A stretch of DNA of 64,000 nt, from contig NZ_JAKVLT010000001.1 of assembly GCF_022484225.1 (NCBI RefSeq), forward strand, positions 62,001-126,000, read 5' to 3'. Under the pieces are notes generated by a model, which was given only the letters and a program-made list of their open reading frames with translations, was not told the origin of the DNA and searched no databases. This DNA is from Pseudoramibacter sp. (GTDB lineage: Bacteria > Bacillota > Clostridia > Eubacteriales > Eubacteriaceae). Shown here one piece after another: positions 36,142 through 41,206 of the stretch. Made by a program: the position numbers and the translations under genes. Numbering within the stretch: position 1 is the first letter of the stretch; each line of letters opens with the position of its first letter.

Positions 36142-37611
36142 TTATTGTTCAATCTGGTCAAAGGCTTCTTCCAAAGCGAGGGAAAGGCTCGGAATGGGAT
36201 GGACAATGCGTTCTAAGTCCATGGTCGTCCCTTCCATGATCATCAGCGCCTGTACCTGGGCGATGAATTCGCAGGCGTTTTCGCCGATGATGTGCACGCC
36301 TAAAATTTCGTGATACTTCCCGTCCACGATCACCTTGACAAAGCCCTGTTTGTTGCTGCTGAAAAGCGAGCCCGGCTCATCGCCGAGGGGCGCCAGACCC
36401 ACCCGGATGTCTTCGTGTTCGATGGACGCTTCCTGGGTGGTGAGGCCGACGCTGGCCACTTCCGGGAAAGTGTGAATGAAATGGGGCATCTGGTAGACGT
36501 CCAGCATCTGCCGCGGACGTCCCTGATCTTCCGCCACCAGATTCTCGATTAAGGTCTTGGCCTGAATCCGCCCTTCGTACGCCATTTCACACTGCCCGGT
36601 AACGCTGCCCACGGCGTACACGTTCTTAAGAGAGGTCCGGTAAAAATTATCGGTGACAATGAACCCGTCATCGATGTCCAGGCGCAGCGGACTTAAGCCC
36701 GACAAATTGCCTTTGTAGAACGTCGGCACGTAAATGGTCGACGAAATCACCGTGTGTTCGGTTTTGGGATGGCTACCGGCCTTTTCAGACGCCGCAAAAG
36801 CGTCTGCAGACGCCAGCTCAATGTGGGTCATCTTCAGGGAATCTTTGTAAATGTCCACGGGACGCATCTTGAGATAAATCTTTGTCCCCCGGCGCTTCAT
36901 CTGTTCTTCGAGGCGCCCGACGATCTGAGCATCGAGATGCTTGAGCACCGAGCTGCTGTCGGTCACAATCGACACACGGCTGCCCAGGGTCTGGAAAAGG
37001 GAGGCCACTTCGCAGGCTCTGACCCCGTCTCCCAAAATCGTCATTTCTTCTGGGATTTGATTAAATTGATAAATGGCATCATCTTCAACCACTTCGGTAT
37101 AATGCTTGAGGGTTTCCCGTTCCTGAGCCTTGAGCCCTGTGGCAACGATGAGGCGCTTCCAGGTCAGGCGCACCAGATTGCCGTCTTCTTCCTTGACGTC
37201 GATCATCCCGTTGGGCAGGGGCCGTCCGGCACCGGCGAAGAAATAGACGCCGGCATCCTCGATCTGCTTGCGCAGTTTGGCGGCTTCCTGATGCATCACT
37301 TCTTCTTTTTCGAGAATCAGGCGGTGCATATCCAGAGAAACCTTGCCGACGACAATGCCTTTATGGGCACGGTAGCGCATGCAGTGGCGGATAAACCGGG
37401 CGTTTTCATGATAAAATCCCGCCGGAATGGCTTCGCTTAAATAGCGCCCGCCAAATTCTCCGGCGATGAGGGCCGTCCGGTAGCCGGCACGTCCTGCTTC
37501 AATGGCCGCAGTAATCCCGACAATGCCGCCGCCTAAGACGATGACGTCAAAGTTTCTCGGCACATCTGTCATATGATCTTTTAACTGATCTGATAATTGG
37601 GTTTCTATCAT
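36142..37611 (-). CDS. Dihydrolipoamide dehydrogenase-like flavoprotein without redox disulfide
   Basis: 489 residues with the fold of E3 (lipoamide dehydrogenase): FAD loop VIVLGGGIVGITAAIEAG, a second nucleotide loop ILGDGVRACEVASLF and the dimerisation domain FPEVASVGLTTQEAS. Where E3 has GGTCLNxGCIPSK, this protein has GGRYLSEAIPAG (about 54-65), so both redox cysteines are gone. Where E3 ends HxHPTLSE, this has HPIPSLSL, so the active-site His and Glu are Ile and Leu. The FAD-binding Asp in the AxGD motif is Ser (YAVGSVTG). It cannot reoxidise lipoamide by the known mechanism. Its ATG overlaps the E2-like stop (ATGA). Confidence 0.9.
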   Translation of the reverse strand: MIETQLSDQLKDHMTDVPRNFDVIVLGGGIVGITAAIEAGRAGYRTALIAGEFGGRYLSEAIPAGFYHENARFIRHCMRYRAHKGIVVGKVSLDMHRLILEKEEVMHQEAAKLRKQIEDAGVYFFAGAGRPLPNGMIDVKEEDGNLVRLTWKRLIVATGLKAQERETLKHYTEVVEDDAIYQFNQIPEEMTILGDGVRACEVASLFQTLGSRVSIVTDSSSVLKHLDAQIVGRLEEQMKRRGTKIYLKMRPVDIYKDSLKMTHIELASADAFAASEKAGSHPKTEHTVISSTIYVPTFYKGNLSGLSPLRLDIDDGFIVTDNFYRTSLKNVYAVGSVTGQCEMAYEGRIQAKTLIENLVAEDQGRPRQMLDVYQMPHFIHTFPEVASVGLTTQEASIEHEDIRVGLAPLGDEPGSLFSSNKQGFVKVIVDGKYHEILGVHIIGENACEFIAQVQALMIMEGTTMDLERIVHPIPSLSLALEEAFDQIEQ

Positions 37612-40243: not shown

Positions 40244-41206
40244 TTATTTCGCATAGACCGGTGTCAGCGCATCGTTCATCGACGGATCAGAGGCGTTTTC
40301 CGCGTAATCCAGGGCGTCCTTGACGCTCCGCGTTGCATTTTCCTTGAGCTGTTCCAGCACGGCCTGATCCATTTGATAGTCCTGAATCAAAGTTGTTGTA
40401 AAGAGGTTGATGGGATCGTGCTGCTGCCAGATCTTCTGTTCGTCGACACTGCGGTAGAGCTGAAGATCATTGGTATCGTAACCGCAGAGACGGTAGGTCT
40501 GCGCTTCGACGACAAAGGGTCCTTCGCCGTCTGCGGTTTTCGCTCTCGCCTTGGTGACGGCGCTGTGAACCGCGATCACGTCGTTGCCGTCGACCGTCAC
40601 CGCCGGGATGCCGTAGCTCGCCGCCAGCGCCGCAACGGACTTCGGTGCGAAATGATGTTCAATCGCCGTGGCGCCGCTGAAGAAATTATTTTCGATCACA
40701 AAAATAACGGGGAGTTTCCAAAGTGCAGCCAGGTTCAAAGATTCGCCAAACAGACCTTCATCCAGTGTTCCGTCCCCGCCAAAGCAGAGCACCACCTGAC
40801 CCGTTTTCTTTTTCTGCTGTGTGAGCGCCGCCCCGCAGGCAATGGGATATGCCGCGCCCGGCGCCGGACTGGTGCCTAAATTATGCACTGAGACATCAGA
40901 CAAATGAGCCGACCCGGACAAGCCGCCGTTGATGCCCGATTCCTTGCCCATGACTTCTGCCATCATCCCCTTGATTTCCATGCCGGAGGCGATGGCCTGG
41001 GCGTGGTTTCTGAAGCTCATCACGATCTCGTCATCCTGGTTCATGGCCATGCAGGCGCCTACCGCCGTCGCTTCCTGACCGATCGATAAATGGGAAACGC
41101 CGTTGATTTTTTCCGAAACACTTGACGACTTCAAAGTCTCTTCAAAAAAGCGCGCCTGATACATACGATAATACATCGTTGCCAGCAATTCTTCTGTATA
41201 CTTCAT
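40244..41206 (-). CDS. 2-oxoacid dehydrogenase E1 alpha-like subunit
   Basis: 320 residues, similar in length to acetoin or pyruvate dehydrogenase E1 alpha. The thiamine diphosphate/Mg motif is complete: GGDG (143-146) through ENN (172-174). Several active-site positions differ: THRGHGH of relatives is SFRNHAQ (64-70), the GANGIVGGG strand is GTSPAPGAA, and the phosphorylation-loop YRGH is LCGYDTND, so the His that binds substrate/lipoate is Tyr243. GGAGG precedes the ATG. It follows ispD by 29 bases. Confidence 0.9.
   Translation of the reverse strand: MKYTEELLATMYYRMYQARFFEETLKSSSVSEKINGVSHLSIGQEATAVGACMAMNQDDEIVMSFRNHAQAIASGMEIKGMMAEVMGKESGINGGLSGSAHLSDVSVHNLGTSPAPGAAYPIACGAALTQQKKKTGQVVLCFGGDGTLDEGLFGESLNLAALWKLPVIFVIENNFFSGATAIEHHFAPKSVAALAASYGIPAVTVDGNDVIAVHSAVTKARAKTADGEGPFVVEAQTYRLCGYDTNDLQLYRSVDEQKIWQQHDPINLFTTTLIQDYQMDQAVLEQLKENATRSVKDALDYAENASDPSMNDALTPVYAK

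Follow-up and report, generated by a model that had tools for sequence, protein, structure and literature searches.

What becomes of a 2-oxoacid dehydrogenase complex that has lost its lipoyl chemistry? The question is raised by a locus of Pseudoramibacter sp., where homologues of E1alpha, E1beta, E2, and E3 lie in tandem on the minus strand within positions 36142–41206 of the analyzed DNA (GCF_022484225.1, NZ_JAKVLT010000001.1, positions 62,001–126,000; this whole stretch of 64,000 nucleotides is called the window, and coordinates follow its numbering; the genome is denoted G000 and the genus g1). The four genes described in an initial annotation are borne out by their coordinates and by Pfam, and their coupling by the junctions: the E1beta and E2-like genes overlap in TGATG, the E2-like and E3-like genes overlap by 4 bases, and the gap between E1alpha and E1beta is 9 bases. 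We give about an even chance to the explanation that the complex is a relative of pyruvate/acetoin dehydrogenase, most likely a non-catalytic (pseudoenzyme) scaffold and not an oxidative decarboxylase, because it is without a lipoyl arm, an acyltransferase motif, and a redox disulfide, but has kept the E1 domains, two peripheral subunit-binding domains (PSBDs), and a predicted E3 fold under strong purifying selection.

The comparison of altered loci covers G005 (g2) and 15 genomes from six further genera (g1, 5; g4, 2; g6, 2; g7, 3; g8, 1; g9, 2). In the window, the PSBD, the tethering domain, is recognized by sequence in two copies in the E2-like protein (Pfam E3_binding); the E2 core is seen only below the threshold (E 0.19), and the Pfam scan of this protein finds no lipoyl domain (PF00364). 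Where relatives from genus g5 show LDHRVADG, the alignment gives LSQKRGTSNVAA, i.e., the DHRxxDG motif is absent; on both losses the initial annotation was right. The best NCBIfam model yields 61.8 bits against a cut-off of 445. The predicted core resembles solved E2 cores (of the 50 matches listed, those to cores have template modelling (TM) scores by target of 0.47–0.69); the model is poor outside the core, with a mean predicted local distance difference test (pLDDT) score of 56.4, and 56–90 by ten-residue blocks across residues 351–540. Two PSBDs are present in 7/8 altered and 2/2 canonical proteins scanned. A lipoyl-like stretch survives in the E2 of g4, g8, G010, and G009, scoring above the cut-off in g4 and g8; inspection of these stretches by eye revealed no DK motif. 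A KKIFEK-type stretch following the first PSBD (window 39000–39050) is common to the E2-like proteins of g1, g8, and g4, and is looser in g9; judged by sequence, it is a possible candidate for a new interaction motif. In the 813-residue E2-like protein of G010 (g7, L081:359-2800), KVPKxS-type units recur along an extended linker.

The E3-like protein contains Pyr_redox_2 and Pyr_redox_dim and scores 254.7 bits against TIGR01350 (dihydrolipoyl dehydrogenase; curated cut-off 408.8). Aligned with eight canonical sequences (four of them from g5; the same set served for E1), it reads GGRYLSEA-IPAG instead of GGTCLNVGCIPTK, both cysteines of CxxxxC being absent, and the C-terminal His-Glu pair is replaced by Ile and Leu; these two losses, too, had been noted initially. 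Also replaced are two residues that we take to be the expected anchors of flavin adenine dinucleotide (FAD), called here FAD Glu and FAD Asp (these labels and the boundaries of lipoamide dehydrogenase (LPD) domains follow the family). The structural model (pLDDT 83.9) matches lipoamide dehydrogenases with TM scores of 0.81–0.85 among the 50 matches listed. Across the locus sequences of g1/g8/g4, FAD Glu is lost in 8/8, FAD Asp in 8/8, and both cysteines in 7/8, and the FAD-site GxGxxG and the GxG of the nicotinamide adenine dinucleotide (NAD) site are retained. The losses are graded: the second cysteine is kept in g8 and g9, His in g8, and Glu of the pair in g6.

These counts bear on the mechanism suggested by the initial annotation, read as a transfer in which electrons of the thiamine intermediate would go from E1 to an FAD repurposed within the E3-like protein. 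The glycine motifs retained in g1/g8/g4, the predicted lipoamide dehydrogenase fold, and the anchors remaining elsewhere (FAD Glu in g6 and g9; FAD Asp in 2/14 rows of the E3 alignment, P0005 and P0009) speak for such a transfer; however, both anchors and, in most cases, both cysteines are gone from g1/g8/g4, no carrier links the sites, and the g2 locus has no E1, so we consider it very unlikely.

The E3s of g5 and most altered E3s have in common a motif D-(I/V)-Y-(K/R)-D-S...H-(I/L)-E that is absent from the canonical outgroup rows; we read it as a sign of common descent. One family member, P0011, is partial: an unrelated N-terminal stretch precedes its E3-like fragment, and the whole may be a chimera of metagenome assembly.

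The E1 pair is recognized in Pfam by E1_dh (232.7 bits), Transket_pyr, and Transketolase_C; E1alpha scores 283.4 bits against TIGR03182 (pyruvate dehydrogenase (PDH) E1alpha; curated cut-off 393.85), and E1beta 292.6 bits against its best NCBIfam model (cut-off 321). Numbering of H271alpha, H128beta, E59beta, F85beta, and F82beta follows PMC2663715. In agreement with the initial annotation, the histidines of reductive acylation are gone (H271alpha is Tyr243, H128beta is Asn131), and E59beta (Glu64), GDG...ENN, and Arg and His of (F/H)RxH are retained. Further changes affect the pocket of thiamine diphosphate (TPP): F85beta to Gln90, F82beta to Ser87, and GDGxxN to GDGxxD. H128beta and F85beta are absent throughout the g8/g4/g1 group. 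E59beta is replaced by Ala in 2/2 g4 genomes and by Lys in 2/3 g7 genomes, i.e., it is lost in 4/15 E1-bearing loci. In g9 and g6, every tested catalytic residue of E1 is present, whereas E2 and E3 are altered. According to Table 3 of PMC2663715, H128Nbeta in the Geobacillus E1p leaves 0.9% (standard deviation 3.4) of the activity with dichlorophenolindophenol (DCPIP) and 0.7% of complex activity; H128Qbeta is given in the same source with 100.2% of dye-linked and 3.8% of complex activity. There, E59beta is termed invariant, and F85beta is described as stacking onto the thiamine pyrimidine. The pattern expected of a pseudoenzyme (fold kept, catalytic residues lost, purifying selection) applies to E2 and E3, which are probably non-catalytic because the residues are missing; for E1 this follows only in part.

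The main rival is that E1 in the genus of the window still carries out a thiamine reaction without lipoate, either decarboxylation or carboligation, while the E2-like and E3-like proteins serve as its frame; we regard this as possible, though rather unlikely. Consistent with it are E59beta, GDG...ENN, Arg66, and His68, all kept in 5/5 g1 loci, and the new pocket residues Gln90 and Asp149, which are fixed. Against it stand the loss of E59beta in 4/15 loci, the g2 locus without E1, the absence of any remaining acceptor subunit, and the near inactivity of H128Nbeta even with a dye acceptor, as given in Table 3 of PMC2663715; the loss of E59beta, the g2 locus, and the H128Nbeta values, together with the loss of FAD Glu in 8/8 sequences of g1/g8/g4, also leave unsupported the thiamine-dependent activity with a repurposed flavoprotein that had been proposed initially.

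Several observations also count against a non-catalytic scaffold. E59beta is retained at 11/15 E1-bearing loci, which a mere scaffold need not do; F85beta is replaced by Gln in 8/8 sequences of g1/g8/g4 and GDGxxN by Asp in 5/5 g1 sequences, as new chemistry would also produce; g6 and g9 retain both E1 histidines; g6 and g9 keep FAD Glu, and g9 also FAD Asp and the second cysteine. E1beta has the lowest ratio of nonsynonymous to synonymous substitution rates (dN/dS) of the four subunits between the window and L003 (0.035, a value that also suits the thiamine rival), and in g9 the E3-like protein is less constrained than GuaA (0.073 vs. 0.008). The one exception found to intact frames is the E2-like gene of G017 (g7, L082:884-2845), which a single stop interrupts and which contains no N. 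Finally, the interface domain of E3 shows 40% identity between the window and L031, compared to 25–29% elsewhere, and likewise in the canonical pair L031 and L042 (57% vs. 44–48%); since canonical pairs also show better interface conservation, this argument for scaffolding was too weak and was dropped.

Distribution of the locus argues for a conserved change. The order tsaE-ispD-complex-guaA is found in 15/15 genomes of the six genera, as far as contigs reach (g3, Acetobacterium-like, is outside this comparison), and an E3-like protein without CxxxxC at 16/16 altered loci, a few of which (including G017) could be read just partially; L005 and L038 contain runs of N. The E3 protein search, in which scoring was limited to the 7999 candidates with the most words in common, gives a family of P0001–P0014 with 35–94% identity among the best 120 of 665 proteins, and the next matches listed are ordinary dehydrogenases with at most 31%; the E2 search gives 11 family members, including that of the window, followed by nine canonical E2s aligned mostly via the PSBD. 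Scanning of species genomes revealed eight loci in seven genomes titled Eubacteriaceae, Eubacterium, or Pseudoramibacter, and g6, g7, and g9 surfaced only in the genome search of relatives.

In g5, the complex next to guaA is canonical and lipoyl-bearing in 5/5 genomes, and in one of them, G025, it occupies the ispD–guaA site with ispD and tsaE adjacent. The initial annotation had allowed that homologues in the same order with cysteines and lipoyl domains would make the complex one mutated copy; such homologues do exist in g5, but the state is altered in 15/15 genomes of the six other genera, hence this is not one mutated copy. Orthologues likewise rule out an assembly error. In the rpoB tree, g5 is sister to g6+g7, g9, g8, g4, and g1 (fork support 80/82), and g2 is placed outside (88/94); with such moderate supports, a single loss cannot be distinguished from several. 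The groups g1, g4, g6+g7, g5, and g9, as well as a joint g8/g4/g1 group, are recovered in both the E1 and the rpoB tree, but the place of g9 differs: it joins g8/g4/g1 in the rpoB tree (99/99) and the g5 side, weakly (70/64), in the E1 tree. As the trees agree on the groups except for the placement of g9, horizontal acquisition is not indicated.

The Nei–Gojobori estimates of dN/dS are rough in g1, where dS is at least 0.5. Between the window and the 95%-identical L003 they are 0.050 for E1alpha, 0.193 for E2, and 0.046 for E3 (E1beta as above), compared to 0.042 for guaA, 0.138 for ispD, and 0.080 for tsaE; with the more distant L004, 0.119, 0.073, 0.257, and 0.107 for E1alpha, E1beta, E2, and E3, and 0.087 for guaA. 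Over the five g1 pairs, E1alpha, E1beta, and E3 fall within 0.035–0.119, and E2 is highest (0.193–0.285). In g9, the values are 0.029, 0.028, and 0.211 for E1alpha, E1beta, and E2; canonical g5 pairs show 0.014–0.027 for E1 and E3, 0.092–0.116 for E2, and 0.020–0.024 for guaA. Thus, the altered complex of g1 is about as constrained as guaA, like the canonical complex in g5; in g9, constraint on E3 is looser than that on guaA, with E1 near the canonical values. The check for purifying selection proposed with the initial annotation therefore favors its view of conserved change over decay, as do the orthologues in six genera.

Gradual neutral decay of an operon without use, lying between essential genes, would explain the progressive loss along the tree, the high dN/dS of E2, and the stop that interrupts the G017 E2-like frame; however, given the low dN/dS of E1 and E3 in the five g1 pairs, the fixed replacement residues, and the absence of stops from all eight best E3 matches in the genome search of relatives, it is the least credible of the explanations considered.

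Supply of lipoate was surveyed by PF21948 (lipoate ligase/transferase, LplA/LipB). It has no match in the genome of the window, where 13/14 controls are positive, and is absent from 9/16 altered-locus genomes (G000, G001, G002, G004, G007, G010, G011, G014, G017), some of them incomplete (G001 65%, G011 87%, G014 75%, G017 84%); it is present in the other 7/16 (G003, G005, G009, G012, G016, G018, G021) and in 5/5 canonical-locus genomes. Hence, ligase loss is associated with the altered complex, yet the complex can be altered in genomes that still have the ligase. The GcvH-profile match and both PF00364 matches in the genome of the window carry the biotin motif EAMKM; the idea that GcvH or some other protein provides the lipoyl group in trans was rejected on this ground and for lack of a ligase. 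The PF00364-matching open reading frames (ORFs; 1150 and 187 amino acids) are presumably pyruvate carboxylase and AccB.

The search for E2 cores (PF00198) covered 12 genomes. No match, and hence no second E2, was found in G000; no above-threshold core is seen in G000, G002, G004, and G009; the altered core is the only one found in G012 and G018 (g9), G011 (g8), G010 (g7), and G007 (g4). A canonical E2 is encoded elsewhere in G003 and G005, and G008 (g5) has its canonical one only. Pyruvate:ferredoxin oxidoreductase (PFOR) is present in 39/41 genomes (not found in the incomplete G001 and G014), with two in the genome of the window; therefore, there is another route for pyruvate oxidation. In a metatranscriptome study of a Pseudoramibacter-like organism, pyruvate oxidation by PDH or PFOR was predicted in all genomes but one (PMC6247018). 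P. alactolyticus has a second, acetoin-dehydrogenase-like cluster (L084:6106-14428) that encodes a lipoyl protein, E2, E1alpha, and E1beta and includes a lipoate-ligase-like gene; the dihydrolipoyl dehydrogenase of this cluster reads as two overlapping ORFs (11228–12100 and 12013–12666).

Which parts of the complex do the altered loci share? The PSBD and the E3-like protein are common to all 16 altered loci (several PSBDs were read by eye), and E1 is found in 15/16. The locus of G005 (g2, L040:5007-7766) consists of E2-like and E3-like genes beside ispD, without E1 genes; we read the downstream gene as purB, not guaA. G005 also has a separate canonical complex on contig L039. In P. alactolyticus (L006:9200-11419), two PSBDs are naturally fused to the E3-like protein without an E2 core. 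Taken together, these variants would suit a lineage-specific non-enzymatic use of an E3-like/PSBD core, e.g., tethering or regulating a neighbor product, with E1 and the E2 core as passengers. Still, in the comparison with L003 the constraint on E1alpha and E1beta equals that on guaA, and the PSBD of g2 is single and just below the cut-off (22.3 vs. 23.7 bits), so that this explanation appears distinctly unlikely. Under the scaffold explanation, the two PSBDs would still tether the E1 alpha2beta2 tetramer and the E3-like dimer, with or without the E2 core. Thiamine diphosphate would continue to bind in the E1 groove, either in a structural role or as a ligand to be sensed, as the GDG...ENN motif outlives the catalytic Glu, and the assembly might, at a guess, hold, sense, or regulate something.

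The features of the locus are collected in Table 1. The terminator scan was uninformative (14 found, 13.6 expected).

Table 1. Positions of the altered complex, its domains and sites, and the neighboring genes in the window
Feature	Position	Strand	Basis or remark
E1alpha-like, 320 aa	40244..41206	-	ORF call, Pfam, residue alignment
E1beta-like, 330 aa	39242..40234	-	ORF call, Pfam, residue alignment
E2-like, 544 aa from ATG 39242 (start by the ORF tool: TTG 39245)	37608..39242	-	
First PSBD of E2-like	39033..39149	-	Near-invariant in the 11-row family alignment
Second PSBD of E2-like	38589..38690	-	Profile, alignment
Former acyltransferase core of E2-like	37626..38198	-	Predicted fold similar to solved E2 cores; sub-threshold in Pfam
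Site of the lost DHRxxDG in E2-like, now QKRGTSN	37701..37721	-	Alignment
E3-like, 489 aa, predicted lipoamide dehydrogenase fold	36142..37611	-	Pfam, model, alignment
Former redox-disulfide helix of E3-like (GGRYLSEAIPAGF)	37414..37452	-	Alignment
guaA, conserved neighbor	34527..36119	-	Start 22 bases past the E3-like stop
ispD, conserved neighbor	41236..42006	-	Stop 29 bases ahead of E1alpha
tsaE-like gene, conserved neighbor	41963..42436	-	ORF call, neighbor comparison

Is a system of this kind known? The literature search, mostly outside subscription papers, found no published description of such a complex, which leaves the initial claim of novelty standing. Dehydrogenase complexes with an individual inactive subunit are known, but the literature searched gave no case of a four-subunit set with stepwise loss of its chemistry under a constraint that, in this genus, is close to that on guaA. 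About even odds are also given to a bolder reading, that a whole 2-oxoacid dehydrogenase complex has become a lipoate-free "pseudo-PDH", kept through the radiation of the clade in a function that no known complex has. In practice, family members carry names such as dihydrolipoamide dehydrogenase, hence genome-based models could wrongly credit these organisms with a working PDH.

1-Deoxy-D-xylulose-5-phosphate (DXP) synthase (DXS) belongs to the same superfamily of TPP enzymes with the E1 fold, and ispD is its pathway neighbor. Against TIGR00204 (DXS; cut-off 465.95), however, E1beta scores 60.6 and E1alpha 19.2 bits, and the canonical g5 complex of G025 occupies the same place between ispD and guaA. 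E1 as a missing DXP synthase was rejected, as the genome of the window has a full DXS (731 bits) and DXR. More generally, DXS is above the cut-off in 9/41 genomes and DXR (PF02670) is found in 23/41; the four g5 genomes searched have DXR and no DXS over the cut-off, and the genomes of g2, g4, g7, g8, and g9 have neither, though ispD is at the locus in each genus.

Catalytically dead homologues are reportedly retained as activators in trypanosomes (prozyme, deoxyhypusine synthase). Such activators partner an active or impaired paralogue; in the window, the whole four-subunit set is affected, and no other E2 was found. The E3-binding protein, or protein X (PDHX), is likewise an E2 homologue with a PSBD and an inactive core, as described in PMC10156792; however, protein X accompanies a functional E2 within an active complex, and in the window both E2 and E3 are altered. 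With the pyruvate/acetoin dehydrogenase complex of the alpha2beta2 type, the altered complex shares gene order, folds, PSBDs, and the TPP-Mg motif, but it lacks the lipoyl domain, DHRxxDG, CxxxxC, the His-Glu pair, and the acylation histidines, and its genome lacks the lipoate ligase. The g5 orthologues beside guaA resemble ordinary members of this type, and the series from canonical g5 through g9 and g6 to g8, g4, g7, and Pseudoramibacter would offer a view of a metabolic megacomplex turning into something else.

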